From Caldalkalibacillus uzonensis (GTDB lineage: Bacteria; Bacillota; Bacilli; Caldalkalibacillales; Caldalkalibacillaceae): a stretch of DNA of 64,000 nucleotides. Made by a program: the position numbers and the translations under genes. The DNA lies in contig NZ_JAUSUQ010000003.1 in NCBI RefSeq assembly GCF_030814135.1, positions 124,001-188,000 of the forward strand, read 5' to 3'. The notes below the pieces were generated by a model that ran no database searches, was not told the DNA's origin, and saw only the letters and a program-made list of their open reading frames with translations. Positions 2,542 to 25,743 of this stretch are shown piece after piece (position 1 is the stretch's first letter; each line of letters starts with the position of its first letter).

Positions 2542-3993
2542 CTAACGACAAATGGAAACAGTTTTAATGGAAGTGTAAAATTCAATGGCAGCACGCCCTT
2601 GTTCACGGGAATGTGAACTGGATTCCTTCATGCCGCCAAATGGCGCTTGGGGCTCCACGCCAGCTGTTTCACCATTGATACGAACCATACCGGCATCGAT
2701 TTCGTCTATAAATGACAGAGCTTTATTAACGTTAGTGGTAAACAGAGAAGCACTGAGTCCAAAACGGACGTCGTTAGCAATTTCAAAAGCTTCCTCTAAA
2801 CTGTCCACTGGAATAAGCACCAGGACCGGACCAAAGATCTCTTCCTGAGCAATTTCCGCTTTTGGAGAGACGCTTTCGAACACGGTTGGTTGTATAAAGT
2901 AACCGTTCTTGTACTGCTCACCTTCTGGCACTTCCCCGCCGAAAAGAATCTTGCCGCCTTCACTTTTGCCTTTTTCAATCATCGTGAGAATGGTATCAAG
3001 CTGGTTTTTGTTGGCTACAGGCCCCATCCAAACGCCATCTTGCAAACCGTCTCCAATGGTAATCTTTTGAACTTCATCAAGCAGTTTAGTTTTAAATTGC
3101 TCATAAATGTTGCGATGGATCAAAGCCCGGCTCGTTGCCGTACACTTCTGTCCCGTAGACTTCATGGCACCATTGATGACTTGTGTGACTGCCAAATCCA
3201 AATCACACTCTTCATCGACGATGGCAGGATTTTTCCCTCCCATTTCCAGCTGATATTTCACGCCCCGGGCAGCAGCAGTTTGGGCGATATAACGGCCCGT
3301 TGAGTTAGAACCAGTGAAGGAGATACCATGGATATCATTATGTTCAATAATGGCATTGCCCACACGAGATCCGCTTCCAGTGACAAAATTAAGCACTCCT
3401 TTTGGTAAGCCAGCCTGTGCGAAGACCTCAACCACTTTTGCTGCTGTTACTCCTGTGTCACTGGCTGGCTTAAAGACAACGGTATTGCCGTAAATGAGAG
3501 CAGGGGCAATCTTCCAAATCGGAATGGCCACTGGGAAGTTCCACGGGGTAATGATACCAACAACGCCCAAGGGGACGCGGGTTGTATAAATATGAGTTTT
3601 CCCATCCATTGACGGGATGACATCCCCTACTTTGCGCAAGCCTTCCCCAGCATAATAGCGCAACAGGTGAACACCACGCATCGTTTCTCCTCTTGCCTCT
3701 GGGAGCGTTTTTCCCATTTCCCGGGTCATGGTTTCGGCAATTTCTTCTAGGCGATTTTCCAAAATGTCAGCTGCTTTATACAAAATATTGCCTCGTTCGG
3801 CACCAGACATTTTTTTCCATGTTCTCTGAGCTGCTTTAGCCGCCTGAACAGCTTCTTGAACATCGTCTGCAGTTGAAGCTTGGATTTCCCCAACGACCTC
3901 ATTAACGTTAGCCGGGTTGATGCTCTTGATGGTTTGACCGGATGCAGAAGCTTTCCATTCTCCGTTGATGTAATTGAGATAAGTTTGTGTCAT
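2542..3993 (-). CDS. NAD(P)-dependent aldehyde dehydrogenase, likely 2,5-dioxopentanoate (alpha-ketoglutarate semialdehyde) dehydrogenase
   Basis: This is an ALDH-superfamily enzyme of about 483 residues. The general-base Glu is in QLEMGGKNP (about residue 250) and the catalytic Cys is in GQKCTATSR (about residue 285); the family stretches [13 protein letters not shown] and QEEIFGPVL are present. I chose the ATG at 3993 (MTQTYLNYI) because AAGGAG sits about 9 bases before it; an in-frame start 24 bases further up overlaps that site. The downstream partner on the other side is an FAH-family 2-keto-3-deoxy-sugar-acid dehydratase, whose product in Weimberg-type pathways is 2,5-dioxopentanoate. 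That pairing is why I favour this substrate; succinate semialdehyde or others are possible. Confidence 0.85.
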
Positions 3994-4036
3994 AAATACC
4001 CACTCCTTTTCCACCATTGTGATTTTTTATATGAAG

Positions 4037-4957
4037 TTAAGATTTTTGTACTCCTGTCCGTGTCGCCAGAGCAACAGGATTGGACAAGGTTCCCACACCG
4101 GACACCTCAATTTCGATGAGATCTCCTTCCTGCAGGGTAAATTCGTCAGGAGGAACAATACAAGTACCAGTTAAGAGAACTGTACCGTCGAAGACCTTAT
4201 TGTCCCGACAGAGATAGTCAATGAGATCATGAAATTTGCGCTTTAACTGGGAGGTATTAGCACTGCCTTCAAAGATGAGCTTTTCTTCTCTGTAAATACG
4301 ACACACAATGTCCATATTATAAGGGTTATCCACCGTCTCAGCTAAACGGATCGTCGGACCGAATGAGCATGAGTTGCGCCAAACTTTAGCTTGAGGCAGA
4401 TAGAGAGGATTTTCTCCTTCGATGTCACGGCTGCTCATGTCATTACCGGCAGTATATCCGATGATCTCACCTGATCCATTAATAACCAAACCGACCTCAG
4501 GTTCTGGCACTTGCCACTCTGAATCAGAACGGATGCAAACTGGTTGATGAGGGTGAACAGTCCGGGCTGACGTGGACTTGAAGAAAATTTCCGGACGTTC
4601 GGCTTCATAAACCTTATCGTAGAACGTAAGTCCTTCGGGCTTTTCTTTCATTTCTATATTTCTTGCATCCCGGCTCCGCTCGTATGTCACCCCGCAAGCC
4701 CACACTTCAGGTGCATCAACAGGAGTTAACAATTCAACGTTCTGCAGACGGTAAACTTTTGCCTGCTGCCTATAGTTTAATGAGGAAATCAATTGAGAAG
4801 GGGTCTGACCGACATTTTTGGCATGCTGAGCCAGGGTGACAATGTCCCGGCATGCTTCGGGATGAAGACTAGTGATCTCATAGATCTCTTCCCCTTCTAA
4901 GACACCCAAAACTGCTGTTCCTTGTTCATCTAAAAAGCGAACGATATTCATATTCAT
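4037..4957 (-). CDS. FAH-family 2-keto-3-deoxy-sugar-acid dehydratase (KdaD/XylX-like)
   Basis: A 306-residue fumarylacetoacetase-fold protein. The central block GVTYERSRDARN followed by FYDKVYEAERPEIFFK is typical of the KdaD/XylX branch that dehydrates 2-keto-3-deoxy-pentonates to 2,5-dioxopentanoate, rather than of C-C bond hydrolases. Metal ligands are probably in EPEVGLV (about residues 150-156) and the later Asp in GNDMSSRDIEGENP. It is immediately upstream of the aldehyde dehydrogenase in the same direction (gap about 43 bp), giving the last two Weimberg steps. A candidate operator lies 43 bp before the start. The exact sugar acid is not determined by the sequence. Confidence 0.8.
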   Translation of the reverse strand: MNMNIVRFLDEQGTAVLGVLEGEEIYEITSLHPEACRDIVTLAQHAKNVGQTPSQLISSLNYRQQAKVYRLQNVELLTPVDAPEVWACGVTYERSRDARNIEMKEKPEGLTFYDKVYEAERPEIFFKSTSARTVHPHQPVCIRSDSEWQVPEPEVGLVINGSGEIIGYTAGNDMSSRDIEGENPLYLPQAKVWRNSCSFGPTIRLAETVDNPYNMDIVCRIYREEKLIFEGSANTSQLKRKFHDLIDYLCRDNKVFDGTVLLTGTCIVPPDEFTLQEGDLIEIEVSGVGTLSNPVALATRTGVQKS

Positions 4958-8572: not shown

Positions 8573-9100
8573 TTAACTTTGTTTTATCTGTTCCTCAAAT
8601 TCTTCTTCTACGTCTTCCAGGTCCCCTGCCAGCAAACGTCTAAATTGTTTGATGAGATGTTGAATAAGACGAACCGAGGTTAATGCCATTCCAACCGGCC
8701 CTGCCGCATAAACATAACCCATGGGTAAACCCAGCCCCGCAGAGGTTTGGCCCCTGTCAAAAATATACATCATCACTTGATAGCCATAAAAAACCATAAA
8801 CACGGCAAAGAATAAAAACAGCATATTCGCTATAATATTGAGAATCACCTTTCCTCTGGCACTAAGTACCATAGACAATGCATCTACTGAAATGTGACGC
8901 TGTCGTTTAACTCCGTAACTGATGCCGATGTAGATCAGCCAGATAAACAAGTAGCGTGCCAGTTCTTCAGACCAGCGTGAGGAATCACCCATTACGTAAC
9001 GCATAAACACCTGATAAAAAACGATAACAACGGCAATGACACTTAAAAGGATCAACATATACTCTTCCAAATGTTCATCGAGCCAGCGCAAGACCTTCAC
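8573..9100 (-). CDS. dctQ: TRAP transporter small permease (DctQ family)
   Basis: About 175 residues with four hydrophobic segments and the family block RWSEELARYLFIWLIYIG (about residues 45-62). I prefer the GTG at 9100, which has AAGGGAAAG upstream; the longer reading from 9136 starts at a TTG with no ribosome site and overlaps a TATAAT-like sequence. The C-terminal tail is unusually acidic (GDLEDVEEEFEEQ). It forms the small membrane subunit with the dctM gene next to it. A cre-like site and a candidate IclR operator lie upstream. Confidence 0.9.
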   Translation of the reverse strand: MKVLRWLDEHLEEYMLILLSVIAVVIVFYQVFMRYVMGDSSRWSEELARYLFIWLIYIGISYGVKRQRHISVDALSMVLSARGKVILNIIANMLFLFFAVFMVFYGYQVMMYIFDRGQTSAGLGLPMGYVYAAGPVGMALTSVRLIQHLIKQFRRLLAGDLEDVEEEFEEQIKQS

Positions 9101-9160
9101 ATCGATCTTTCCCTTCAAAATAAGATCTTTAAGCAAGGAGATTATAAGCTCTTAAGGCTT

Positions 9161-9174
9161 CTAAAACGCTTACA
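9161..9174 (-). promoter_or_regulatory. cre-like site (CcpA) upstream of dctQ-1
   Basis: On the minus strand TGTAAGCGTTTTAG matches the cre consensus TGWAARCGYTWWCA in 12 of 14 positions. It would put the second TRAP unit under carbon catabolite control. Binding is inferred only. Confidence 0.35.
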
Positions 9175-9213
9175 GATAAATACGAGATAACCGAAAGACA
9201 GGAAGCAGAACAT

Positions 9214-9230
9214 GGTTTGTAATATAAAAC
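9214..9230. promoter_or_regulatory. Candidate IclR operator, copy 3 (upstream of dctQ-1)
   Basis: GGTTTGTA-A-TATAAAAC: the right half matches the 17-bp palindrome exactly, the left half in 6 of 8. It lies in the gap between the two TRAP systems. Confidence 0.4.
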
Positions 9231-9231
9231 A

Positions 9232-10512
9232 CTAACTCGTCATCAATTTAGGCAGCCACAAAACGAGATCAGGGAACAGAGTGATGATGAGCAACACCGC
9301 AATCAGCAACAGATAGAATGGAATAAGTTCCCGAATTAACTGCAAGATGCCGATGCCGCCTATCTTGGAGATCACAAACAGCACAATGCCAAACGGTGGA
9401 GTTAAAAGCCCGATCATCAAATTGAGAACCATAATGATCCCGAAATGAACAGGATCAATACCAAATTCATTAAGCAATGGCAATATGATGGGCGTGAGAA
9501 TTGTAATGGCTGCGATTGTCTCCATGAAGGCACCGACGATCAGTAAAAAGAGATTTAAGACCAAAAGTAAAATCAAGGCAGAATCAGCGAAAGAGGTAAA
9601 GAAGTCCAACACTTCCATCGGGATGCGCTGACGCATGATGACGTTTCCATAAATGGTAGCCATGGAAATAATAATGCCGATAATGGCACTATCCCGGGCA
9701 GTTTCACGCAACACCTGAACCAATGATTTCCATGTTAATTCCCGATAAACAATCCCGGCCAAAAAGAAGGCGTACAATACTGCTACGACTGCTGCCTCAG
9801 TGGGTGTAAAAATCCCTTTATAGATTCCTCCGATAATGATCACTGGTGTGAGCAAAGGCAGAAATGCCCGACGCAAAGCCCTGAAAAATACTGGCCACGT
9901 TGGACGTGCTTCACGGGGGAAATCCCGCTTCTTGGCAAAATAGGAAACAAGCAGCATCATGGCCACGCCCATTAACAAACCGGGAATCACACCAGCAAGA
10001 AACAAGGCCCCGACCGAAGCACCTGCAGCTACCCCGTAGATCACCATGGGCAAGCTGGGCGGAATAATCGGACCAATAGTGGATGAAGCAGCAGTAATAG
10101 CGGAAGAAAATCCCCGTCCATATCCTGCATCGCGCATCGCTTTAATCTCGATTTGCCCAAGACCAGCTGCATCCGAAACTGCGGTTCCAGACATTCCGGA
10201 AAAAATAACACTGCTGGTCACGTTAACGTGTCCCATACCTCCAGGGAGAAAACCCACGCATACTTTACAAAAATCAAAGATGCGATCAGTGATGCCTCCC
10301 GTATTCAGGAGTTTACCGGCAAGAAGGAAGAGGGGCACTGCCAGAATAACAAAGCTATTTATACCGCCCATTAAGCGCTGGGCCATATTGGCATATTGGA
10401 TATTGCCATCCATAAGCATCAGCACAAAAGAGGTAAAGCCCATGCTGAAAGCAACTGGCATTCCGATAAGAAACAAGACCAATAAAAGCCCGATAAAGAC
10501 TACAAGTACCAT
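9232..10512 (-). CDS. dctM: TRAP transporter large permease (DctM family), second system
   Basis: A 426-residue protein, the same length as the other DctM in the window and clearly a paralogue. It has AVPLFLLAGKLLNTGG, SGMSGTAVSDAAGLGQIE, IPPSLPMVIYG, FTPTEAAVVAV and LNLMIGLLTPPFGIVLF blocks and about 12 hydrophobic segments. It belongs with dctQ-2 and dctP-2 immediately upstream (gap to dctQ-2 about 24 bp). Two complete TRAP systems back to back suggest uptake of two related acids. Confidence 0.93.
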   Translation of the reverse strand: MVLVVFIGLLLVLFLIGMPVAFSMGFTSFVLMLMDGNIQYANMAQRLMGGINSFVILAVPLFLLAGKLLNTGGITDRIFDFCKVCVGFLPGGMGHVNVTSSVIFSGMSGTAVSDAAGLGQIEIKAMRDAGYGRGFSSAITAASSTIGPIIPPSLPMVIYGVAAGASVGALFLAGVIPGLLMGVAMMLLVSYFAKKRDFPREARPTWPVFFRALRRAFLPLLTPVIIIGGIYKGIFTPTEAAVVAVLYAFFLAGIVYRELTWKSLVQVLRETARDSAIIGIIISMATIYGNVIMRQRIPMEVLDFFTSFADSALILLLVLNLFLLIVGAFMETIAAITILTPIILPLLNEFGIDPVHFGIIMVLNLMIGLLTPPFGIVLFVISKIGGIGILQLIRELIPFYLLLIAVLLIITLFPDLVLWLPKLMTS

Positions 10513-10536
10513 TGGCTCAACCCTTTCTGAGATTGA

Positions 10537-11064
10537 TCACGATTTAGACACGGTAGAGGAAGAGGAATCATTTAATGAATTGTTGGAGGTGAAAAATGTT
10601 TCTTTAATGACCTCAATAACCCGTAACACGCTGTAGAAAATCATTAAAACCGATCCTAAAAACAGGGCCAAATAAACATAGGACATGCTTAACCAACGCA
10701 TGGTTGCCGACGAAACGTCAGTGCTGCTTTCCACCATGATCCAGCTTCCTTTAAGCAAAATACTAAGAAAAAAGATAATGGCTAGTTGAACAATAATGTG
10801 TACAGCTGCTCGCAACATGCGTGGAAGCCGTTCAACTAATATATCAATGGCGATATGGGACTTTTCCCTAATGGCAAGGGCAGCCCCGATATAAGTGAGA
10901 TAGATAAACATAAAGCGGGCCACTTCTTCTGTCCATGGCGCAGAGATCTGAAAGATATAACGAAAAGCCACTTGCAGGGTGATGGTGACTACAATGCCAA
11001 CTAACATCAGAACAATAAAGAAATCGATGGTCTTGTCAAGGAAACCGAGAATACGTTTCATCAT
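10537..11064 (-). CDS. dctQ: TRAP transporter small permease (DctQ family), second system
   Basis: About 175 residues from the ATG cluster at 11067-11061 (MMMKRILGFLDKTIDF). AAAGGGG lies about 8 bases before the middle ATG, and the longer open frame to 11127 would run into a stable hairpin. Four hydrophobic segments and PWTEEVARFMFIYLTYIGAAL (split over residues 48-68) are typical of DctQ. The C-terminal tail is Ser/Asn-rich (SNNSLNDSSSSTV). It is coupled to dctM-2 and follows dctP-2. Confidence 0.88.
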   Translation of the reverse strand: MMKRILGFLDKTIDFFIVLMLVGIVVTITLQVAFRYIFQISAPWTEEVARFMFIYLTYIGAALAIREKSHIAIDILVERLPRMLRAAVHIIVQLAIIFFLSILLKGSWIMVESSTDVSSATMRWLSMSYVYLALFLGSVLMIFYSVLRVIEVIKETFFTSNNSLNDSSSSTVSKS

Positions 11065-11120
11065 CATCCATGCCCCTTTGTCAGCTTCTTTCTTACTATT
11101 CTCAAAATGATATGGGAGCG

Positions 11121-11157
11121 ACCTCACACAAGCGGTTATGGGTGCTGTGTGTGAGGT
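11121..11157 (-). other. Intergenic hairpin between dctP-2 and dctQ-2
   Basis: ACCTCACACA pairs perfectly with TGTGTGAGGT across a 17-base loop, just after the dctP-2 stop. No T-run follows on the minus strand. Such hairpins behind binding-protein genes usually protect the upstream mRNA and raise the amount of binding protein over permease. A related hairpin follows dctP-3 at 38572. Confidence 0.55.
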
Positions 11158-11175
11158 CGGATTCTATACAGGTTT

Positions 11176-12213
11176 CTAGTCCAGGAGAGCGTTAATTTCT
11201 TCCAAAGATGTCACAGTCCAAGACTCTTGGAAGAAACGCTCCAATCCAGGTTGAGCCTGTTCAACAAACGCTTCTTTGTCTATTTCAACCACTTGCATAC
11301 CTGCCTCTTGCAACTCTTGATAGAATTGCTCGGCATCAGACACAGCCTCAGCATCGGCATAAGCCATTGCTTCTTCTGCTGCTTCTTGGATCAACTGCTG
11401 GTGTTCGGGGCTTAAGGAATCCCATAAATCTTTGTTCATCCACATAAAGGTTGCTTCATAGATATGGCCAGTGTTGATCAGATAGTCTTGAACTTCTTGT
11501 AATTTAAACGTATAAATTTGCTCGTACGGACCTTCAGACGCTTCCACAACCCCGGTTTGCAAAGCCCCGTATAATTCAGGCAAAGCAACAGGCGTTGGAG
11601 AGGCACCAATGGCTTCCCAGGACGCAATCCAGGCTTCAATTTCAGGCAAACGCAAGTTCAGGCCCTTTACATCATCGGGTGTTTCAATCGGTTTGTTAGC
11701 GGTCATATGGCGGGCACCGCGAATATTGGTTCCGATGATTTGCAAGCCGGCATCAGCCATTTCGGCAAACATCTGCTCTCCAAGGTCCCCGTATAAAGCA
11801 GCTTGCATATGCTCCATGCTTTGGAATAAGAACGGTGCTGTAAAGAACATGTATTCGGGAGCATACATATCAACACCTTGATATCCCCCTAGGACCATCT
11901 CCAGATCGCCGGCACGAACAGCTTCAAAGTTTTCTCGTTCAGTACCCAGAGCCCCGTTAGGGAAGAAATTAACTTCAATCTCTCCATTGGAACGCTCATT
12001 AACCAACTCGGCGAATTTGGCTGCCCCTTTGGCCGGAGCTGATTTTTCTTCATAAACACTAGCGATATCAATGCGAATCGTCTCTCCAGCAGGCGCGCTC
12101 TGTTCTTCCTCTTGCTCTGCTTCGCCATTTGAGCTTGTGCCAGAATCACCTCCGCAAGCTGCCAGAGCCAAAACCAGCACTAGCATACCGAAGATTAAAA
12201 ATGTTTTTTTCAT
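11176..12213 (-). CDS. dctP: TRAP transporter substrate-binding lipoprotein (DctP family), second system
   Basis: A 345-residue protein with a lipobox signal (LALAAC, Cys about residue 20) and an acidic linker. The DctP core includes EKSAPAKGAAKFAELVNE, GDLEMVLGGYQGVDMY, and the carboxylate-binding Arg region GLNLRLPEIEAW, then GVVEASEGPYEQIYTF. It is the first gene of the second TRAP operon (dctP-dctQ-dctM). A very similar copy lies at 38629-39660, without permease genes. The ligand is unknown; TRAP ligands are usually carboxylates such as sugar acids or hydroxy acids. Confidence 0.92.
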   Translation of the reverse strand: MKKTFLIFGMLVLVLALAACGGDSGTSSNGEAEQEEEQSAPAGETIRIDIASVYEEKSAPAKGAAKFAELVNERSNGEIEVNFFPNGALGTERENFEAVRAGDLEMVLGGYQGVDMYAPEYMFFTAPFLFQSMEHMQAALYGDLGEQMFAEMADAGLQIIGTNIRGARHMTANKPIETPDDVKGLNLRLPEIEAWIASWEAIGASPTPVALPELYGALQTGVVEASEGPYEQIYTFKLQEVQDYLINTGHIYEATFMWMNKDLWDSLSPEHQQLIQEAAEEAMAYADAEAVSDAEQFYQELQEAGMQVVEIDKEAFVEQAQPGLERFFQESWTVTSLEEINALLD

Positions 12214-15827: not shown

Positions 15828-16769
15828 TTATTGATTCCCTTTAACAACGTTGCGCAGTTTTCCAATCTTTTCTACCTCAACGATAACTTCATCTCCATCT
15901 TTCAAAAAGACTTGAGGTTCACGGGACATCCCCACTCCCGGAGGCGTACCAGTGGCAATGACATCCCCAGGTTCAAAGGTCATGGATTGAGAGAGATAGG
16001 ATAAGATATAGGGTATGTTAAAGATCAAATTTTTCGTATTTGAATCTTGCATTGTTTCTCCATTGAGATGCAGCTTAATGTCCAGTTGGTGGGGATCTTC
16101 AATTTCGTCTTTCGTCACCAGCACTGGTCCCATCGGAGCAAATGAATCGGGGGATTTACCTCTGACCCATTGCCCATCTCCCAGCTGAATGTCCCGGGCA
16201 CTGACATCGTTGATAATGGTATAACCGGCAATATACGCCATGGCTTCGCTTTCGCTCACTTGTTTTGCTTTCTTGCCTATCACAAACGCCAGTTCCGCTT
16301 CATAGTCTACCTGATCTGAGTTAGGAGGCAGCAGAATAGCATCATCGGGCCCAACGACAGCGTTAGCGTACTTGGAAAAAATCACAGGGGATTTGGGAAT
16401 ATCCATTCCTGTCTCCTCACAGTGGTCCACATAGTTTAAACCGACACAAACCAGTTTTCCAGGCCGGGGAATCGGGGCTTTTAATTTCACTTCGTCTACG
16501 GCGTAAATCAATCGTTCCCCGTTCAAGCCTGAACCTGGGGACCCTAAAGCGTAATCCATTGCTTTTTTGGCTTCGGCAAGAGCAGCTTCCCCTCGTTCCA
16601 AGAAGGTGAGCATCTCAGAGGGAACCATGGCCTGCGCAACAAGTACTGGGCTTGCTTCACCTTTATCGGCCAACAAGGCCGTATAGGCAGCGTTCAGGTC
16701 CACCACTTGTTGATCAACTAAGGCACCCACACGAGTAAGACCATTAAATGAAAAAGTGACTAGCTTCAT
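15828..16769 (-). CDS. Fumarylacetoacetate hydrolase family protein (FAHD-type)
   Basis: About 313 residues from ATG 16769, which has TTAGGAGG upstream. Conserved blocks are CVGLNYVDHCEETG, KSPVIFSKYANAVVGP, VDYEAELAFVIGK (metal-binding Glu residues), NDVSARDIQ and ATGTPPGVGMSREP near the C-terminus. This branch includes 2,4-diketo-3-deoxy-sugar-acid hydrolases, oxaloacetate decarboxylases and acylpyruvases. In this operon of sugar-acid dehydratases and dehydrogenases, a hydrolase of a 2,4-diketo sugar acid is plausible. The second FAH protein in the window (4037-4957) is from a different branch. Confidence 0.85.
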   Translation of the reverse strand: MKLVTFSFNGLTRVGALVDQQVVDLNAAYTALLADKGEASPVLVAQAMVPSEMLTFLERGEAALAEAKKAMDYALGSPGSGLNGERLIYAVDEVKLKAPIPRPGKLVCVGLNYVDHCEETGMDIPKSPVIFSKYANAVVGPDDAILLPPNSDQVDYEAELAFVIGKKAKQVSESEAMAYIAGYTIINDVSARDIQLGDGQWVRGKSPDSFAPMGPVLVTKDEIEDPHQLDIKLHLNGETMQDSNTKNLIFNIPYILSYLSQSMTFEPGDVIATGTPPGVGMSREPQVFLKDGDEVIVEVEKIGKLRNVVKGNQ

Positions 16770-16810
16770 AGCGAATAACCTCCTAATATGTTCCAATCTT
16801 TTCGTTGATC

Positions 16811-17794
16811 TCAGGATAAGATAAGATCTTTTAATTCTGGTACAACGTAGCAGGAAGAATCACCTTGTAACGCCTTAACCAGGTTTTCTGCAGCCACCCT
16901 GGCCATATCCCGGCGCGTTTGATGGGTTGCAGAACCAATGTGGGGAACAGTCACCACGTTGGGCAAAGCAAGCAAAGGATGATCCGGCGGGATTGGCTCT
17001 TGCTGAAAGACGTCCAAACCAGCCCCTCGTATCCGTCCGCTTTGTAAAGCACGGACTAGCGCCTGTTCATCCACTGTCTGACCTCTAGACGCATTGATGA
17101 AAATGGCTTCTTCCTTCATTAACTGAAATTGATCGTCCCCAATCAGCTGAACTGTCTGCGGGGTTAAGGGAGTAAGCAGTACGATAAAGTCTGACTGGCG
17201 CAAAAGGGTCTCCAAAGAGACATAGGTGACGCCTAAGCGCTCTTCTATTTCCGGTTTCTGGCGGCGGTTATAATAGAGTACCTCCATATCAAAGCCTAAC
17301 TTGGCTCGTTTGGCCACCTTTTCTCCGATACGACCCATGCCGATGATACCGAGAGTACGATGATGAACGTCAATACCAAATAAGTTCTCGTTATCACCCT
17401 TTTTCCATTTCCCTTCTTTCACATAACGATCCAGTTCCGCTATGCGCCGGGCACTGCTTAAGATAAGGGCAAAAACCAGATCGGCTACAGTATCATCTAA
17501 CACGTATGGGGTATGGGTACCTAGCACTTTTCTTTTACGCATGGCACCTATATCAAAGTTGTTATAACCGACGGAGATGGTGCTAATCACTCTCAGATGA
17601 GGCGCATGAGCCAACAACTCCTCATCCACCTTAAGGCCATGCAGCAGGAGGCCCTCTGCATCTCTTACCTCCTCGAGGAGCTTGCCACGGGGAATAGGCT
17701 CAGACCGATCCCATTTGCGGTACTGGCAGTGTTGACCAATATAGGCCTCAATGTCAGCCGGAATAGGATTGGCAATAAACACATTAGGCTTCAT
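16811..17794 (-). CDS. 2-hydroxyacid dehydrogenase (GhrB/2-ketogluconate reductase-like)
   Basis: A 327-residue D-2-hydroxyacid dehydrogenase. NAD(P) motif [16 protein letters not shown] (about residues 150-165) is followed by YYNRRQKPE; the Arg after the fold (NRR) suggests NADPH preference. Catalytic residues are Arg in NASRGQTVD, Glu in FQQEPIP and His in VPHIGSAT. Such enzymes reduce glyoxylate, hydroxypyruvate or 2-ketogluconate. The gene sits 41 bp before the FAH gene in the leftward operon. A role in reducing a 2-keto sugar acid or glyoxylate is likely. Confidence 0.88.
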
Positions 17795-17851: not shown

Positions 17852-18805
17852 TCATCTGTTATCCCCCTGGCGCACGCTCACTTGGGGAATGCCTAAATCA
17901 CTCGCTCCCAGCTTCGATGTTTTTGCTTCAGGATAATAACGTTCAATGATTTGTATGCCTAAGGCAGCTCGACGAACCCGCTCCCGGCACAGCTGAATAT
18001 TGGTTGCTTCCCAATGGAGCCCAGATGGATATACATCAGGATGATTACGCAAACCAAATTTGATATAAACAGGAGCTAATATACGGATCAACTCCGGTAT
18101 TTCATAGTGACGGATGAACCCGCCAAAGTTGTCAGGCACTTCAACATAAAGGTCAATGGGAATATCAATTGCCTGGCGGATGGCTGCCAGCTTGGGAAGG
18201 GTCAACGCCGTGGGCACGTTAAACGTGTCAGCACCCAGGTCCTGTATTATTTTCACAGACACAGGATTGGCAGCGGCTAACTGCACAGAAACTTTGACCA
18301 CAAAATCCTTAGGCAGCAACCCTTTTTCTTTCATTTTCTTAGTCAAATAGAGCAGCCCTTCATCAGCGACTAACGCCCCTCTGAGACCCAGGCTGGCCCC
18401 TCTCTTTAAATCTTCCATGGCATAGACCAACTGATCTGCCCCTTCATGTCTTAAAGCAATAGAAGATCCTGCTTTGGTGAAGGGTTGGGCACTGATATCC
18501 CAGGTTCCTCTCGGGCCCACAAACAAGCTGAGCTCCATGCCCCGCTCAGCGCACATCCGGTTCATCTCTACAATTTCGTCATCAGTCAAGAGCATAATGC
18601 CGCTTCCTTGGGACACACGGTGTACGGTAATTCCATGGCGGTCGATTTCTTCCAGTGTGGCCTCCAAGGCACGAGGGCCTTCAACGCTGGGCAGTTCAAT
18701 CCGATATTGGGCCCCATCAGGAAAGCGTTTCTCTGAGTCAGGAAGTTCGTATAAATCCCGCTCCGGAAAACCCAGTGAGCGAAGGAAGGCTCTTGATTCC
18801 TGCAT
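17852..18805 (-). CDS. TIM-barrel protein resembling the U32-peptidase family, function unknown
   Basis: About 317 residues. The sequence has barrel-like repeats (IRQAIDIPIDLYVEVPDNFGG, APVYIKFGLRNHPDVYPSG) and a block FVVKVSVQLAAANPVSVKIIQDLGADTFNVP similar to U32-like proteins. I see no recognised protease motif. I chose ATG 18805 because AAGGGATG precedes it; a GTG at 18832 lacks a ribosome site. It lies between the YjhG-type dehydratase and the GhrB-like dehydrogenase in the same operon, so a metabolic (sugar-acid) role is more likely than proteolysis. A single conserved His-Glu pair near HWEATNIQL may matter. Confidence 0.5.
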   Translation of the reverse strand: MQESRAFLRSLGFPERDLYELPDSEKRFPDGAQYRIELPSVEGPRALEATLEEIDRHGITVHRVSQGSGIMLLTDDEIVEMNRMCAERGMELSLFVGPRGTWDISAQPFTKAGSSIALRHEGADQLVYAMEDLKRGASLGLRGALVADEGLLYLTKKMKEKGLLPKDFVVKVSVQLAAANPVSVKIIQDLGADTFNVPTALTLPKLAAIRQAIDIPIDLYVEVPDNFGGFIRHYEIPELIRILAPVYIKFGLRNHPDVYPSGLHWEATNIQLCRERVRRAALGIQIIERYYPEAKTSKLGASDLGIPQVSVRQGDNR

Positions 18806-18856
18806 CCTGTTCACATCCCTTTCTTGGTTCACCTTAGTTCATTGATTCAGTTTGGT

Positions 18857-21052
18857 TTAAGTCACTTTTATTGAACGATTTGCTTTTCTTTTGTAAGGAA
18901 TGTCAGCATCCATTTTGACTACTAAGGGTACAACACCATGGGCCGCATCAGTACATCCAGCTAGACGGTTGCCTGGTGCCACCTCTTTCTGGCGCCGTCT
19001 CATACGTTGCTTACGTTCTTCACCTAACTGGGCTCGTTCAGTTTCCAAGTCGCCCTGATACAATTCAACCTGTCCCTCTTGGAACTTTTCTGCGTCGAGC
19101 AGTTCAATCCGTTTAGCCCGGAAACGCAGGAGCAGCAAATCTCCTTCTTGCAGGTAGAGGATTCCTCCTCCTTGGTACGCCTCCGGTGTCATATGACCGA
19201 TAGCTGCACCGTAGGAGACACCGGAGTAGCGTCCATCGCTAATCAATGTAGCCAGTTTCTGTAATTGCCGGTTGGCATTAATGTGCTGCATGGGTGTAAA
19301 CATCTCAGGCATACCGTATGCCTCCGGACCTTGTCCGGCAATGATCACTGCAATTTTTAAAATCTCTTCCTGCACCATACGCTTGAAGAGAGAATCATAG
19401 TCTAAGTTTTGTGCGTTTTGGAACGTCTCCGGCTGATTATGGGCCCACATCTTAAGCAGATGCTCGTGGGCGAAAGTTTTCTTCTGACGAAGGTCATCCA
19501 ACAGGTTGACATTCAAAAGCTGGGCATTGGCCTCATCTTCGTTTTCAAAATAAAGGACAAATGAGACCTTTTCATCAAATTTATCCAGTTGGTGAGTGGG
19601 CATGCCGCTGATCTTGACAACAGCGCTCTCAAAGAAGTTTCCTTCGAGGACATCCACCCCGCTAAACGGGCGTCTCGGTTTGCTGAGAATGATGGGGTTA
19701 TCCTTCACATTGTCAGCGCTTAAGCCCTTTGTATCCGCCAAGCGCTCGGCCCAAGTCTGTCCGGTTACGGTCATGGCATCAGTATCCATGGGAACGCCAT
19801 TATTGAGCAACTCGTAAAAGAGTGTTTCCATTCCCCGAATGAGGCCTGAACAACATTGCTGGGCCAGAACGAAAATGTCTCGCCCCTCGGTCAGGCTATA
19901 ATCAAACAGGTCCGGAATGGGATATTCCTGCTGAATGTCCCGGACATCCCACAGACTAAAGTCATAACCGGCATATAACATAGCTCCAACGATATGCATC
20001 ATCAGATTGCTGGAACCGCCACCGGCACTGTGAATACGAACAGCATTGGCTATGTTAGCCTTGAGCAGCTCTGTTACACTGCACTCCGGACGGTTAATAA
20101 TTCCAAACAGTGATTCGATCGCCGGATTCAATTGTTCCTGGGTAGGCGGCTCTGTCAATAATTCAAGATTAGGGTGAACAAGACCAAAGCCAGCAGTGAT
20201 ATCCCTAGAGCTGTTTCCGGTACCATGAAAAGCACAGATCCCGCCAGCAGCATCACAAGTGTTAACCGCCAATCGCTTTTCAAAATCTTTATGTTGCTCC
20301 GGGGTGATTACCCCTTTTTCAACAGCTCGCAGAAAAACCCCTTGAAAAGCAGTGTTTGAGGAACATTGTAAGATAAAGCTGGAGGCATCCAGAAGATCGT
20401 CAGCGATCTCCGGGTAGCCCATTTTCCGGGCACGCTCTGCCACCTCATGCAACTCGCTCATGAGATCCGCCGGGATTTCTCCTCCTTTAAGCACGTGCGA
20501 AGGAGCAAAGGTGGCAAACAGAGGCGCTTCTCCTCTAATGCGCCGTGTCCGGTCGACCATGGCCAATCCGCTCAACACACCGAGCGGCTGTTTATCACAG
20601 CCTTGAATGACAAAAGCACCATGATAAGAATGGGCTTCCATCTGGTTGGCCACGACTTCAGCGATGGCATTACGGCTTTGGAGAGAATAGCTCATGCCCA
20701 TGTTGCTCTGAGCTGTTCCATCACACAGGACAGGTGTGCTGAAATAAAACGGAACGCCACCCTCTAGCCAGATCTTAAGCGCCGCCCGGGAGACCGTATA
20801 CTGATCCAATATGTGAGCAGGGTGATCGGCAGATCCACCGATAATCGCAATCCGTGGGCAATTTTCTTCCAACCGGTCATAAATTTCCTCCAAAGTCCAA
20901 CCAGGCTGGATATGCTTTGCTTCTTCTCCCAACCATTGCTTCGCTTGATCCAGAAGCCCTGCCACCGTAATCGGCTCATTAGCCTTGCCTTGAACATTTT
21001 CTTTATAAGGATTGACCGGGCTATTGACCCGAGGCCTGTATGGCTTACTCAC
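18857..21052 (-). CDS. IlvD/EDD-family aldonate dehydratase, YjhG/YagF (xylonate dehydratase) type
   Basis: About 731 residues, longer than the roughly 655 of E. coli YjhG. It is an iron-sulfur dehydratase: ligand blocks CDGTAQSNMGMSYSL (about residue 130), QGCDKQPLGVLSG (about 200) and CDAAGGICAFHGTGNSS (about 300) are visible, as is ISDGRYSGVSYGAAIGHMTPEA near the C-terminus. The reading frame opens at 21145, but GTG 21052 has AGGGAGGAG six bases upstream and does not overlap the preceding gene, so I take it as start. The expected reaction is D-xylonate (or another aldonate) to 2-keto-3-deoxy acid, feeding the FAH dehydratase at 4037. Confidence 0.85.
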   Translation of the reverse strand: MSKPYRPRVNSPVNPYKENVQGKANEPITVAGLLDQAKQWLGEEAKHIQPGWTLEEIYDRLEENCPRIAIIGGSADHPAHILDQYTVSRAALKIWLEGGVPFYFSTPVLCDGTAQSNMGMSYSLQSRNAIAEVVANQMEAHSYHGAFVIQGCDKQPLGVLSGLAMVDRTRRIRGEAPLFATFAPSHVLKGGEIPADLMSELHEVAERARKMGYPEIADDLLDASSFILQCSSNTAFQGVFLRAVEKGVITPEQHKDFEKRLAVNTCDAAGGICAFHGTGNSSRDITAGFGLVHPNLELLTEPPTQEQLNPAIESLFGIINRPECSVTELLKANIANAVRIHSAGGGSSNLMMHIVGAMLYAGYDFSLWDVRDIQQEYPIPDLFDYSLTEGRDIFVLAQQCCSGLIRGMETLFYELLNNGVPMDTDAMTVTGQTWAERLADTKGLSADNVKDNPIILSKPRRPFSGVDVLEGNFFESAVVKISGMPTHQLDKFDEKVSFVLYFENEDEANAQLLNVNLLDDLRQKKTFAHEHLLKMWAHNQPETFQNAQNLDYDSLFKRMVQEEILKIAVIIAGQGPEAYGMPEMFTPMQHINANRQLQKLATLISDGRYSGVSYGAAIGHMTPEAYQGGGILYLQEGDLLLLRFRAKRIELLDAEKFQEGQVELYQGDLETERAQLGEERKQRMRRRQKEVAPGNRLAGCTDAAHGVVPLVVKMDADIPYKRKANRSIKVT

Positions 21053-21089
21053 AACTTTCTCCTCCCTTTGCATTATCCTTGTGACAAGT

Positions 21090-22043
21090 CTAGAAGCTGG
21101 GTAAGACACGATGGATGGCAAATTCCGAAAAACCAAGTTCTTCATTCTTAGTCGCTTTGCCGTTGGTTACGTTCCCGATATCAGACAAAATCATCTGACC
21201 GATCTCAGGGATGGTATGCGTCTTTTCCAGGATACCGCTGGCGTCTATATCCAGCTCTTCCCCCATGATGGACATCAGTTCGGGGTCACCGCACACTTTA
21301 ATGACTGGAGAGATGGGAGAGCCAACAGGATTCCCTTCTCCCGTTGCATAAAGAATTAAGCTGGCTCCCCCAGCAATCATCCCGGTAATACCTTCCGCAT
21401 CACTGGTGCCGCCGGCCATCAAGTACTGTCCTTGTTCTCTCGGCTGCTCACCGTACCTTAGTTGGCCATCAATCGTCAGCGTTTCCATTTCTTTTGTGCG
21501 GAGGACGATAGCCCCTTGTTCAGCCAAACGAGCACTGGCCCATTCTACCGCCGGCATCGCCGCTCTTTGGGTTGATGTCGTCTCGTCACCATATTGAATA
21601 CCTATACTTAGCTGATTCCAAGCAATATCTTGTCGAGGCTGTGTGTCAGCGATTGCTTTTAACTTCTTCGCCAACTGAACCCCTTGTTCAATTGTTTTGA
21701 CCGTTCCCCCAGCTTCCTGAATCACCAGCGTTTCCACCGGCTTTCCGGACTTTTCTATCTCTTGGGCCAGACCGTATGGATCAACACTCTCACACCCCAA
21801 ACCAACGACCAGAACGGCTGCCACATTAGGATTCATTCCGAATCCTGCCAACGTCCGCTTGGTCTGCTGAACATCATCCCCTACCTGGGCACAACCGGCC
21901 TGGTTGGCCAGGGTAACTGCCCCCTTCACCTGGGCCGCAATCTGCTCACAGGTTTCCGATGAACACAGGACGGACGGCAGGATAAGAACATGATTCCGTA
22001 TCCCCGCGCGACCATCCGGCCTAACGTATCCTTTTACCATCAT
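21090..22043 (-). CDS. UxaA-family dehydratase paralogue with altered catalytic motif
   Basis: About 317 residues, shorter than the UxaA-type protein at 24253 (382). Both share KGYVRPDGRAGIRNHVL-like starts, NPNVAAVLVVGLG, EITGMIAGGA-like and GNPVGSPISPVIKVCGDPE blocks. However the motif read IGIECGGSDTTSG in the paralogue is IGIQYGDETTSTQ here, and the region GNIRGGLTTIEEKS is missing. The cysteine and Asp lost are in the iron-binding/active-site motif of the family. It may be a regulatory or structural subunit, or act on a different substrate. ATG 22043 has GGGGGA at good spacing. It is followed by the YjhG-type dehydratase. Confidence 0.75.
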   Translation of the reverse strand: MMVKGYVRPDGRAGIRNHVLILPSVLCSSETCEQIAAQVKGAVTLANQAGCAQVGDDVQQTKRTLAGFGMNPNVAAVLVVGLGCESVDPYGLAQEIEKSGKPVETLVIQEAGGTVKTIEQGVQLAKKLKAIADTQPRQDIAWNQLSIGIQYGDETTSTQRAAMPAVEWASARLAEQGAIVLRTKEMETLTIDGQLRYGEQPREQGQYLMAGGTSDAEGITGMIAGGASLILYATGEGNPVGSPISPVIKVCGDPELMSIMGEELDIDASGILEKTHTIPEIGQMILSDIGNVTNGKATKNEELGFSEFAIHRVLPSF

Positions 22044-22086
22044 AGACGTTCCCCCAACTCTCATGGTCTAATCAAGTCATATCTGT

Positions 22087-23373
22087 CTAATCTAGCAAAT
22101 ATCCTTGTTCATCAAAGCGCATTTCTCCAGGCTCAGAGAGAATGGTGATCTTGTCCTGGCTGCGAATTTCATGCAGATAAGCCTCTGAAAGATAGATCTC
22201 ATTCAATTCCAGGGTATTTTTAATTCGGACGATCTTAGCCCGTTCCGGTGTTACCCGGTTACAGGTTTTGAGGGCCACGATAATCGCTTCTTTATCGTTG
22301 TTCATGATAAGCGGCAGCTTAGCCCCTTCCAGCACGGTTGAAGTAATGCAATTCGCATAGGTATAACTGAAATCGATTTTGTTCACACAGTGCAGCGTGG
22401 TCACGTCAGCCATACCAATACCAGTGGCATTGCCATGGGTTTTCTCTGTCAAATCCAGCACGACCACTTTTTGTATCGGCGGAGCGGAAAAGCCGGGAAG
22501 TTTAGATCCGGGCCGGCCTGTGATGTTAGGGTCCATGCCTGAACCGCTAATGTTTTTACCAATTTCATCCACAATTAAAACATCGATTTCTGAAACCAGT
22601 AACTTAGGCATATTTTGCTTAGCTTCAATCAGCAGTGATTTTTCCCGTTCAACAATATCCTCAGCAGGAATCACTTCCAGTTTGGCTGTTTCATCATAGG
22701 CGTTTTCAACAATCCCGATCCCAAAAGCGACAGGGGCCTTTTCAAGAATGGCTTTTCCCGTTTTGGGAATGAGGTCATGGAATTGATCAAATCCATAAGA
22801 ATGAAGGGTAGTAGCCCCTTTATGCTTACCCAGACCGATACCGAGCATCTTAAGCAGTCCGCTCTCAAAATCCCCTTTAAAATCAGTATGGGGCTTAATG
22901 CGATTGACCACCACAATCAAATCGGCCTGTGAGGCCTCCTTATCCAGATAGACAGGCATGCCGTTATCCAACTTGGTCAATTCGACCACATCCATCGAGG
23001 AAATGACCGGAACACCCATCGTTTTCTCGTCGATGCCATAGTCAGCTAAAATCTTAGCCTGGCCTTGAGCGGTTGCACCCCCGTGGCTGCCCATGGCCGG
23101 AACAATAAACGGCTCCGCTCCCCAGGCTTTTAGTTGAGTGATGGTGCTTTTGACAATCGCAGCCAGATTAGCAATCCCACGACTGCCTGCTGCAACCGCC
23201 ACCCGCTTCCCCTGGAAAACATCTGGCACCAATTTGGCCTGCATTTGCTTGACCACTTCACCTTCGATATCTTCCAACCTATCAGCATTAAAGTGCTGTT
23301 TCACCCTCATCATCTTCGGCAAGTCGATCTCATAACCGCCTGCCAGCGGTACATTTACCCGTTCCAAAATCAT
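22087..23373 (-). CDS. LarA-family nickel-pincer racemase/epimerase homologue (DUF2088)
   Basis: About 428 residues from ATG 23373 (GGAGG seven bases upstream). It has the LarA N-terminal domain: AAGSRGIANL (about 61-70), PAMGSHGGAT with His about 97, NRIKPHTDFKGDFESGLLKMLGIGLGKHKGA with His about 162 and Lys about 175-185, and a later His in TLHSYGF. LarA carries a covalently bound nickel-pincer nucleotide on a lysine in this region and racemises lactate; homologues epimerise other 2-hydroxy acids. The location in a sugar-acid operon suggests C2 epimerisation of an aldonate or similar. The cofactor genes larB, larC and larE are elsewhere in the window. The substrate is an inference. Confidence 0.8.
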   Translation of the reverse strand: MILERVNVPLAGGYEIDLPKMMRVKQHFNADRLEDIEGEVVKQMQAKLVPDVFQGKRVAVAAGSRGIANLAAIVKSTITQLKAWGAEPFIVPAMGSHGGATAQGQAKILADYGIDEKTMGVPVISSMDVVELTKLDNGMPVYLDKEASQADLIVVVNRIKPHTDFKGDFESGLLKMLGIGLGKHKGATTLHSYGFDQFHDLIPKTGKAILEKAPVAFGIGIVENAYDETAKLEVIPAEDIVEREKSLLIEAKQNMPKLLVSEIDVLIVDEIGKNISGSGMDPNITGRPGSKLPGFSAPPIQKVVVLDLTEKTHGNATGIGMADVTTLHCVNKIDFSYTYANCITSTVLEGAKLPLIMNNDKEAIIVALKTCNRVTPERAKIVRIKNTLELNEIYLSEAYLHEIRSQDKITILSEPGEMRFDEQGYLLD

Positions 23374-23400
23374 TGTCATTCCTCCACCTTATCTATTTCC

Positions 23401-24159
23401 CTAGTCCATCAACTGCCCGCCGTTCACTTCGATGATTTCCCCTGTTAAATAGTCTGCATAATCGGAGGCCAGGAACAAGATAGCACCCACGGTATCTTGC
23501 GGTGTTCCGGCGCGGCCGAGCGGGATGGTGCTCACCATTTTTTTAAAGACTTCAGGAGCAGTAAACTGCTCGTGAAAAGGTGTATCTATAATCCCAGGTG
23601 CTACACCGTTAACAAGAATATTGTATTCGGCCAAATCTTTGGCTAAAGCGCGGGTTAGAGTGCTGACCCCTCCCTTTGAAGTGGCGTAAGCAATGCTGCC
23701 GAGTCCGCCACCGTTACGTGCTGCCACAGAGGTGGTATTGATCACCTTCGCCTTAGGCTGGGCTTGCAATAACGGCAATGCATATTTGGTAACCAGATAC
23801 ACCGAGGTTAAATTAACATCGATCACCCGCTGCCACAGTTCTTCATCTAACTCGTTCAGCCGCGCCCGTTTAATCATTGAACCCGCATTATTGACTAATA
23901 CATCCAAACGTCCAAACGCTTCCTCGACCTCGCCCACCATTTTCTTCACCTGCTCCCGGTCTGCCACATCCCCTTGCACGAGCAGGGCACGCCGTCCTTG
24001 TTGTTCAATCTCTTGTACCAGCTCCTGGGCCGGCTTCACACTCCGATTGGCATGAACAATCACATCTGCACCATGCTCTGCAAAAGCTAAGGCAGCAGCC
24101 CGACCAATCCCCGTACTGCTCCCTGTCACCCAAACCACTTTTCCCTCAAACTGATACAC
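23401..24159 (-). CDS. Short-chain dehydrogenase/reductase
   Basis: About 252 residues from GTG 24159 (GGGAG ten bases upstream; the frame extends to 24195 without a ribosome site). It has TGSSTGIGRAAA, NNAGSMI, Ser in NTTSVAARN and YxxxK in YATSKGG. After the glycine motif comes VIVHANRSV; the absence of an acidic residue plus Asn-Arg suggests NADP(H). It lies between the UxaA-type dehydratase and the LarA homologue, with 27 bp to the latter. It may oxidise or reduce a sugar or sugar acid in the same pathway. Confidence 0.83.
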   Translation of the reverse strand: MYQFEGKVVWVTGSSTGIGRAAALAFAEHGADVIVHANRSVKPAQELVQEIEQQGRRALLVQGDVADREQVKKMVGEVEEAFGRLDVLVNNAGSMIKRARLNELDEELWQRVIDVNLTSVYLVTKYALPLLQAQPKAKVINTTSVAARNGGGLGSIAYATSKGGVSTLTRALAKDLAEYNILVNGVAPGIIDTPFHEQFTAPEVFKKMVSTIPLGRAGTPQDTVGAILFLASDYADYLTGEIIEVNGGQLMD

Positions 24160-24252
24160 CCTTGGCCATCTCCCTTCTTTTTTCCATCCTCTCAAACTTT
24201 CACCTTACCTGCATGAAAAAGGTTTAACTGACCACGATCCGGCAACAGAGAA

Positions 24253-25401
24253 TCAAATGACTCGGTTAATGGCAAATTCCGTAAAGCCATGTTGCTCCGA
24301 CTTAGTGAAGCGGCCATTAGCCACCTCAACAATGAGATCAAAAATAGATTTGCCTACCTCATCAATCGTCTTTTCTCCTTCGATAATTTTGGACGCATCC
24401 ACATCGATGTTATCGATCATCCTCTTCACTGTTTGAGGATTGCCGCAAACCTTGATCACAGGACAAATCGGTGAGCCGACCGGTGTTCCTCTTCCAGTAG
24501 TAAAAATAATGATCTGGGCACCACCGGCAATCATCCCTGTAACTGATTCAATGTCATAGCCCGGAGAATCCATCAGATAATGACCTGGACTCACAGGTGC
24601 TTCAGCATATTTTAAAACCCCCTGTATGGGAGCAAGACCAGATTTGTATATCGCTCCTAGTGATTTTTCCTCTATGGTGGTCAAACCACCCCGAATATTT
24701 CCAGGACTGGGCTGTGCTCCCCTAAAGTCGACACCGGAGCGCTTTAAGTTTTCTTCATAACGGTAGACGGTCTCTAAAATCTGTTTTCCAACTTCAGGAC
24801 TGGCCGCATTGCGGGCCAGGATATGCTCTGCTCCGATCAGTTCCGGGGTTTCAGATAGAAAAGTGGTTCCCCCTTGTTCCACCAGGAGATCAGAAGCAAC
24901 CCCTGCCGCAGGATTGGCTGCCAACCCGGAAGTGGTATCGGATCCACCACATTCAATCCCGATCATCAAGTTTTCCACACCGACCTCTTCTGTTTGCATA
25001 CGGTCAGCTTCCTGTTTTAATTCCTTCAGCACCTCAATGCCTTTTTTAATGGTCTTGGCCACTCCTCCTTCTTCCTTAATGATCAAAACTTCTGCCCGTT
25101 TCCCTGTCTGACGTATCTCTTCAGCCAGTTGGGCCGCATTAATGTCCTCTCCCCCCAGACCAACCACCAAGACGGCAGCTACGTTAGGATGGGTGCCAAA
25201 CCCCTTTAAAGTTCGCCACACTTGGTCAAAGTCTTCTTGGGCCAAAGTCCGGCCTACCTGGTTAGAGAGAGAAACAGCCTCTTCTGCACCTTTAGCTATG
25301 TACTTAGCTGTTTCAGTACTGGCAATGGTCGTTGGTAAAACAAGAAGATGATTACGGATTCCCACTCGTCCATCCGAACGAACATACCCTTTAAATTTCA
25401 T
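24253..25401 (-). CDS. UxaA-family dehydratase, large (catalytic) subunit
   Basis: A 382-residue protein matching the C-terminal catalytic domain of altronate dehydratase and the large subunits of split enzymes (SuyB-like, galactarate dehydratase-like). It has YVRSDGRVGIRNHLLVLPT at the start, MIGIECGGSDTTSGLAANPA (about residues 150-170), and GRGTPVGSPICPVIKVCGNP toward the end; the cysteines probably bind iron. The small SAF-domain subunit is encoded 36 bp upstream. A sugar acid (altronate, galactarate, fuconate) or sulfolactate is the possible substrate; the neighbours favour a sugar acid. Confidence 0.88.
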   Translation of the reverse strand: MKFKGYVRSDGRVGIRNHLLVLPTTIASTETAKYIAKGAEEAVSLSNQVGRTLAQEDFDQVWRTLKGFGTHPNVAAVLVVGLGGEDINAAQLAEEIRQTGKRAEVLIIKEEGGVAKTIKKGIEVLKELKQEADRMQTEEVGVENLMIGIECGGSDTTSGLAANPAAGVASDLLVEQGGTTFLSETPELIGAEHILARNAASPEVGKQILETVYRYEENLKRSGVDFRGAQPSPGNIRGGLTTIEEKSLGAIYKSGLAPIQGVLKYAEAPVSPGHYLMDSPGYDIESVTGMIAGGAQIIIFTTGRGTPVGSPICPVIKVCGNPQTVKRMIDNIDVDASKIIEGEKTIDEVGKSIFDLIVEVANGRFTKSEQHGFTEFAINRVI

Positions 25402-25437: not shown

Positions 25438-25743
25438 TCAAGCCCCTTGTGCTGTCCCTTTGCCTCTCACGCTATCGACGTTGTGGATATGAACATGTTC
25501 CCCGCAATGGATATCTTGGGTGGCAATGCCGATCTCTTCCCCGTACTTGATTACCGAAGCCCCTTTTGGAATGTCAAGCAGCGCAAATTTGTGTCCAAAA
25601 GGAATGTCATCTAACAGATCAACCTCTGCCATCTCTCCCTGGTTGATCTTAACCCGTCCCTTCTCACCTTTGCTTAAATCACGAACAGCTGTGGCAACAT
25701 TGTCGTTATCTTTCATCTTGACAGCATTCGCTTTATTTGACAC
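25438..25743 (-). CDS. SAF-domain small subunit of UxaA-type dehydratase
   Basis: A 101-residue protein from GTG 25743 (GAGGAGGAG upstream). It matches the SAF domain that forms the N-terminal part of fused UxaA proteins: IPFGHKFALLDIPKGASVIKYGE-like block near residues 50-70, then GIATQDIHCGEHVHIHN with the His/Cys residues expected near the active site. It is first in a leftward operon and partners the large subunit at 24253. Two-gene splits of UxaA are known in other bacteria. Confidence 0.88.
   Translation of the reverse strand: MSNKANAVKMKDNDNVATAVRDLSKGEKGRVKINQGEMAEVDLLDDIPFGHKFALLDIPKGASVIKYGEEIGIATQDIHCGEHVHIHNVDSVRGKGTAQGA

Follow-up and report, generated by a model that had tools for sequence, protein, structure and literature searches.

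A group 22 LarA homologue within a sugar-acid dehydratase operon of Caldalkalibacillus uzonensis: a predicted sugar-acid C2-epimerase

The LarAH gene and its operon

The window, the whole stretch of 64,000 nucleotides of Caldalkalibacillus uzonensis analysed here (contig NZ_JAUSUQ010000003.1, positions 124,001 to 188,000), carries an uninterrupted minus-strand open reading frame of 428 amino acids at 22087-23373, designated LarAH. The plus strand holds no comparable frame over these positions. An alternative ATG, with GGAGG ahead of it, lies two codons upstream at 23379.

LarAH is part of a minus-strand unit whose genes are separated by tens of bases or overlap. In the order of transcription, the open reading frame list gives at the head of the unit a UxaA1-like SAF-type small subunit of UxaA/GarD dehydratases (25438-25743, 101 aa; TIGR03248 over residues 3-78, 43 bits). 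It is followed by a UxaA-type protein of 382 aa, chain A (24253-25401; PF20629, 339 bits), and by a short-chain dehydrogenase/reductase (SDR; 23401-24195; adh_short_C2, 216 bits), possibly a 2-keto-3-deoxy-sugar-acid 4-dehydrogenase by analogy with known pathways. Downstream of LarAH come a short UxaA-type protein of 324 aa, chain B (21090-22064; GD_AH_second, 149 bits; GD_AH_C only from position 113), and an IlvD/Edd-family dehydratase with long insertions (18857-21145; PF00920, 106 bits; PF24877, 91 bits). The unit continues with a 326-aa protein (17852-18832) that has a weak Peptidase_U32 match (PF01136, 27.7 bits) and no NCBIfam match, a GhrB-like D-2-hydroxyacid dehydrogenase (16811-17794; NF011938, 386 bits, under the cut-off of 492) and an FAH-family hydrolase (15828-16796), whose best match, 2,4-didehydro-3-deoxy-L-rhamnonate hydrolase (NF053535), scores 246 bits against a cut-off of 500.

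The IlvD/Edd protein measures 762 aa in its longest reading frame, and its true start is probably downstream of the start of that frame. It has about 150 extra residues spread across several insertions, and its best family scores are far under all cut-offs; the three Fe-S cysteines appear retained in the alignment.

Further along the minus strand lie two TRAP transporters, an alpha-ketoglutaric semialdehyde dehydrogenase (2542-4017; NF042993, 830 bits, cut-off 770) and, on the same strand, a distant AraD1-like FAH protein (4037-4957; NF040903, 61 bits, cut-off 340). Ahead of the SAF gene, a consensus scan places a terminator-like hairpin (25986-25963) and an extended -10 promoter-like site (25922-25894), both on the minus strand. 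A second terminator-like hairpin follows just past the FAH gene (15788-15766). All of these are consensus matches only, and their total counts are near those in shuffled sequence.

An earlier note on this DNA placed LarAH between an SDR and two UxaA/YjhG-type genes. The SDR on one side and the UxaA-type gene followed by the IlvD/Edd gene on the other, all on the same strand, bear this out. The IlvD/Edd protein comes nearest to a YjhG but reaches just 107 bits against the YjhG cut-off of 808, the adjoining UxaA gene is a shortened, half-degenerate paralogue, and the second UxaA gene and the SAF subunit upstream of the SDR had been missed.

Taken by family, the unit combines UxaA- and IlvD-type dehydratases, an SDR (assigned by family only) and an FAH hydrolase that scores about half its family cut-off. 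In this it resembles, by analogy, the known Route III sugar-acid pathway, in which a UxaA-family dehydratase acts with an SDR and an FAH hydrolase (PMC6336799, PMC11199699). The D-arabinonate dehydratase (UxaA/GarD) cluster of Herbaspirillum huttiense likewise brings these three families together in one pathway. As far as the accessible part of its description goes, it differs from the window in having one UxaA chain only, which retains all four conserved cysteines, and no LarA homologue.

Family, fold and conserved residues

LarAH scores 567 bits (cut-off 400) with the NCBIfam model NF052515, "nickel pincer cofactor-dependent isomerase, group 22", the match covering model positions 1-390 of 392. 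The malate-racemase models score 19-28 bits, the Pfam Lar_N match is weak (30 bits), and NF033504, the model for group 1 LarA lactate racemase, is absent among its NCBIfam matches. The group number is presumably taken from the classification by Desguin et al. 2020 (PMC7583248) into 25 LarA groups; the assay table of that paper includes no group 22 protein. The text of a 2024 follow-up on the LarA groups makes no mention of group 22, and the open-access literature searched yielded nothing tying lactate racemase to altronate dehydratase, sugar acids or glucuronate isomerase. LarAH is a real and probably functional member of a LarA group that has a name but is uncharacterised; the novelty lies in the assignment of function, not in kind.

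A search of PDB sequences with LarAH or with its 43-row homologue profile found no LarA, so fold comparison and profile-profile comparison were used instead. An AlphaFold2 model built from the 43-row alignment (pLDDT 95.2) matched LarA-family structures with Z 19.7-21.9 over about 300-330 residues, at 13-16% sequence identity, and the next fold reached only 6.5. The structures matched were LarA, the Isosphaera enzyme, Mar2, the Thermotoga protein 4nar and a single-His LarA. The model thus predicts the two-domain LarA fold for LarAH.

Profile-profile alignment (probability 97.7, E 9e-12) of the LarAH family with a set of 31 canonical LarA proteins equates R65, H97, H162, K175 and H191 of LarAH with R75, H108, H174, K184 and H200 of LarA; the LarA numbering is that of Desguin et al. 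(PMC7583248), carried over by motif. All five residues are invariant in the 43 aligned homologues and equally in 11 others taken from named records. The Lys and His cofactor residues, whose loss would have spoken against the earlier proposal, are therefore all in place (K175, H97, H162 and H191). For the Asp through which LarA touches the cofactor ribose, the alignment shows no clear counterpart, and in the C-terminal domain, including the K298 position, residue-by-residue alignment with LarA is unreliable.

The loop after H162 reads T-D-F in LarAH (T163/D164), as against F-F in LarA (F175/F176) and E-V in GntE. Homologues have T, A or S followed by D, A, S, G, N or T at these positions, with a register uncertain by one residue. 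Two assignments were rejected on this and related grounds: lactate racemase (group 1), as LarAH lacks both the NF033504 match and the F-F loop, and GntE (groups 19/20), as it lacks E/V at the F175/F176 positions and its family scores differ.

LarA has the same fold as LarAH (Z about 20) and the same cofactor and catalytic residues, and differs in sequence (about 16% identity), in the loop and in the absence of the sugar-acid context. GntE, the D-gluconate 2-epimerase of Thermotoga maritima and Corynebacterium glutamicum, has the same fold and NPN residues and inverts C2 of a hexonate within a sugar-acid pathway, the type of reaction predicted for LarAH. It belongs to other NCBIfam groups; the LarAH unit of the window differs in containing dehydratases and Route III-type genes. 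LarA homologues with His174 replaced by Asn, for which a carbohydrate role is suspected, are equally close in fold (Z about 21); LarAH differs from them in retaining H162.

Complementary dehydratase chains

Four conserved cysteines are proposed iron ligands of UxaA/GarD enzymes, Cys134, Cys173, Cys208 and Cys276 in D-arabinonate dehydratase (PMC6336799). All four occur in 46 of 54 aligned UxaA rows, a few of these rows being repeats of one gene. The two chains of the LarAH unit divide this set between them. Chain A has lost the N-half cysteines and has only the fourth, in the motif CGGSD (pattern ARG/C); chain B keeps just the first three, has lost the CGGSD motif (pattern CCC/Y) and lacks the GN..GGLTTIEEKSLG segment. 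The cysteines of both chains were equated with the numbered residues of D-arabinonate dehydratase by pattern, not by alignment.

Pairs of this kind, with one and three cysteines, are found outside the window. Chain A is 51% identical to a Halostagnicola chain, and the complementary pair, its two genes side by side and again accompanied by a SAF gene, occurs in both Halostagnicola and Haladaptatus. In a further genome, G158, chain B of a pair of the same type stands beside larC1-larB-larC2 and a group 22 LarAH. The coordinates of the pairs are 8989-11716 in locus L209, 8989-11563 in L210 and 139-1038 in L105 together with L201, alongside 24253-25401 and 21090-22064 (both minus strand) in the window. 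These patterns tentatively suggest that LarAH works with a heteromeric UxaA-type dehydratase, in which chains A and B might share one four-cysteine iron site, with the SAF subunit added, in an arrangement kept from a bacterium to haloarchaea; on balance this reading is somewhat doubtful. Chain A proteins without the N-half cysteines also occur with no short partner found, in genome G092 and at another locus of the same genome as the window (C2:164948), which makes the shared iron site a conjecture and complementary chains no general rule.

Sulfolactate sulfo-lyase, a UxaA relative reported without these cysteines in the same source (PMC6336799), was also considered for chain A. The accompanying SDR, IlvD, FAH and ketoglutarate-semialdehyde genes would favour sugar acids.

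Cofactor genes and canonical LarA

The NPN cofactor genes lie about 22-26 kb from LarAH, in agreement with the earlier observation that LarAH is not beside larBCE. They comprise larC2 (45728-46207, minus strand), larE (46204-47004, minus strand), larB (47158-47907, plus strand) and larC1 (47914-48651, plus strand). All four are well over the cut-offs of their curated families (the set NF052512, TIGR00268, NF033503 and TIGR00299), so that the pathway is complete in the window, as had been stated.

The further claim that these genes support a working LarAH proved unspecific. The genome also encodes a canonical LarA (contig C11; 567 bits against NF033504) and two more group 22 proteins, and larBCE in the window is therefore no proof that LarAH is loaded with the cofactor; in addition, 28 of 86 group 22 genomes in the phylum sample are without LarB.

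Co-occurrence was assessed in 398 genomes of the phylum of the window, using lists of matches over cut-off that were compiled by hand. Group 22 is over cut-off in 85 of them, and 86 group 22 genomes enter the lists. LarB is over cut-off in 41 of 55 genomes with both group 22 and canonical LarA, 17 of 31 with group 22 only, 90 of 144 with canonical LarA only and 69 of 168 with neither. The difference between group-22-only genomes and those with neither is not significant (p=0.17), and LarB co-occurrence thus failed as proof of NPN dependence. Twenty-seven of the 28 LarB-less group 22 genomes, single-contig genomes among them, also have no LarE over cut-off. The NPN ligands are invariant in LarB-less genomes too, for which uptake of the cofactor or of a precursor is proposed, as a guess from sequence. 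LarA-family genes without LarB, and LarB without either type of LarA, would fit sharing or uptake of the cofactor.

Genomic context of group 22

The co-occurrence with dehydratase genes that the earlier note pointed to recurs elsewhere. Forty group 22 loci, drawn from 34 genomes of this phylum including that of the window, were compared with 40 control windows placed at round coordinates in the same genome set regardless of gene content. A UxaA or IlvD/Edd gene lies near 14/40 group 22 loci and 1/40 controls (p=3e-4), a comparison that may slightly favour the test loci because the search profiles were seeded with the window proteins and their matches. The same sample gives 18/40 against 1/40 for TRAP DctM, 14/40 against 1/40 for SDR, 9/40 against 1/40 for GlcD, 10/40 against 3/40 for GlcF and 1/40 against 0/40 for LarB. 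At many group 22 loci a dehydratase is missing, while GlcD/GlcF or TRAP genes are present.

In the tree, LarAH of the window falls in a set of nine members (support 94, not starred). Three of these loci carry IlvD/Edd genes (L049, L052 and L053), one of which (L053) also has a KDG-type kinase and a KDPG aldolase; a further member (L058) has a DGOK kinase and an aldolase.

As LarA groups go, group 22 is a large one, and in Bacillota, Alphaproteobacteria, Actinomycetota and haloarchaea its genes stand mostly among those of sugar-acid catabolism. Annotated records show the order IlvD/Edd-Ldh-DHDPS-UxaA-LarAH-(gene)-larB-larC in Loktanella, larB-IlvD/Edd-LarAH in Roseicitreum, whose cluster also has larC and a LarE-like gene, UxaA-LarAH-LarC in Sulfitobacter and Pseudosulfitobacter, and LarAH-SAF-UxaA in Sporomusa. 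In Marinovum, TRAP-LarAH stands beside KDPG aldolase, DGOK, RraA-like and dehydrogenase genes, and next to these are what are probably lar cofactor genes. In haloarchaea, an FAH gene adjoins the group 22 gene.

Two plasmid loci point to candidate substrates. In Paenibacillus cellulositrophicus the cluster reads uxaC-LarAH-SDR-larE-larB-larC1-larC2, beside a ROK gene and about 6 kb from zwf and gndA. It fits mannonate/gluconate interconversion and is a candidate for a compact glucuronate-to-gluconate route via NPN epimerisation; GntE enzymes epimerise D-mannonate and D-gluconate with NPN (PMC7583248). In Rubrobacter indicoceani, the order four-carbon acid-sugar kinase-PdxA-LarAH makes the group 22 protein a candidate D-threonate/D-erythronate 2-epimerase.

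Proposed function and alternatives

LarAH is probably an NPN-dependent sugar-acid 2-epimerase that feeds the dehydratase of its operon, with a C4-C6 aldonate as the probable substrate; the neighbouring genes are what suggest an aldonate. This reading draws on family, fold, residues, gene order and recurring contexts, from which the reaction, the substrate and the order of steps are inferred, the roles of individual residues being carried over from LarA by analogy. C2 epimerisation before dehydration, as the earlier note had suggested, remains the best fit to the LarA fold, the cofactor residues and the mostly sugar-acid contexts of the orthologues. Points that count against it are the loop residues unlike those of GntE, the many group 22 loci with GlcD/GlcF or TRAP genes in place of a dehydratase, and the carriers that have no LarB.

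In the proposed mechanism, H97 or H162 would act as the base that deprotonates the C2 hydroxyl of the sugar acid, and the C2 hydrogen would pass as a hydride to the pincer cofactor. The cofactor would be tethered by K175, with its nickel ligated by H191 and its phosphate or the carboxylate held by R65. Return of the hydride to the opposite face would invert C2, and a sugar acid whose C2 configuration had been the wrong one would thereby become acceptable to the UxaA- or IlvD/Edd-type dehydratase. Since an aldonate loses its C2 stereocentre on dehydration, a C2-epimerase ahead of the dehydratase would let both epimers converge on the same 2-keto-3-deoxy acid. Such an arrangement would be chemically economical and fits the contexts. 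The SDR and the FAH hydrolase would then oxidise this acid and cleave it, as in Route III, to give pyruvate together with a small 2-hydroxy acid, and the 2-hydroxyacid dehydrogenase would use the latter.

The release of such an acid gives rise to the main rival explanation, which is unlikely: LarAH might racemise a small 2-hydroxy acid (glycerate, lactate or similar) at the end of the pathway, where D-2-hydroxyacid dehydrogenases or GlcD/GlcF would oxidise both enantiomers. The D-2-hydroxyacid dehydrogenase and FAH genes within the unit, the GlcD and GlcF genes near group 22 loci and the FAH genes adjoining haloarchaeal group 22 genes all agree with a product-side role. However, LarAH of the window sits between dehydratase genes and not beside the hydrolase, and close relatives are found with a KDG(al) kinase and KDPG-type aldolase, or with uxaC and an SDR; these routes free no 2-hydroxy acid, which argues against racemisation of the product as the general role of the group. 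Context itself calls for some caution, as it is not always helpful in assigning the activity of LarA homologues (PMC7583248).

Two other explanations depart from the chemistry of the sugar-acid 2-epimerase. It is improbable that LarAH uses NPN without epimerising, for instance in hydride-mediated redox chemistry on a keto acid or sugar acid; group 22 stands far in sequence from the LarA structures, and other hydride reactions are allowed for groups without the catalytic residues (PMC7583248), but both catalytic histidines, needed for inversion in two directions, are invariant in LarAH. Least probable of all is that LarAH dispenses with NPN, or lacks activity in many of its carriers, with larBCE of the window serving the canonical LarA only. 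The canonical gene on contig C11, the lack of LarB enrichment in group-22-only genomes and the scarcity of LarE in LarB-less carriers are consistent with this. Against it stand the cofactor ligands, conserved even in LarB-less genomes, and the clustering of larB/C/E with group 22 genes in Loktanella, Roseicitreum, Paenibacillus and Marinovum (by annotation) and, in part, in G158. Genomes with canonical LarA only are also without LarB in 54 of 144 cases, and cofactor uptake might be a general reason.

If LarAH is a sugar-acid 2-epimerase, NPN chemistry would be a common bacterial means of funnelling C2-epimeric sugar acids into one dehydratase. The contexts gathered here replace the bare label "isomerase, group 22" by testable predictions specific to each locus: mannonate/gluconate in Paenibacillus, threonate/erythronate in Rubrobacter and the dehydratase substrate in the window.

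A search for related loci in genome contigs gave one relative only. The two further group 22 genes of the genome lie at 302018-303181 of contig C2 and 8535-9701 of contig C20. One of them adjoins a 2-hydroxyacid dehydrogenase and an FAH gene, the other an SAF-size gene and UxaA genes.
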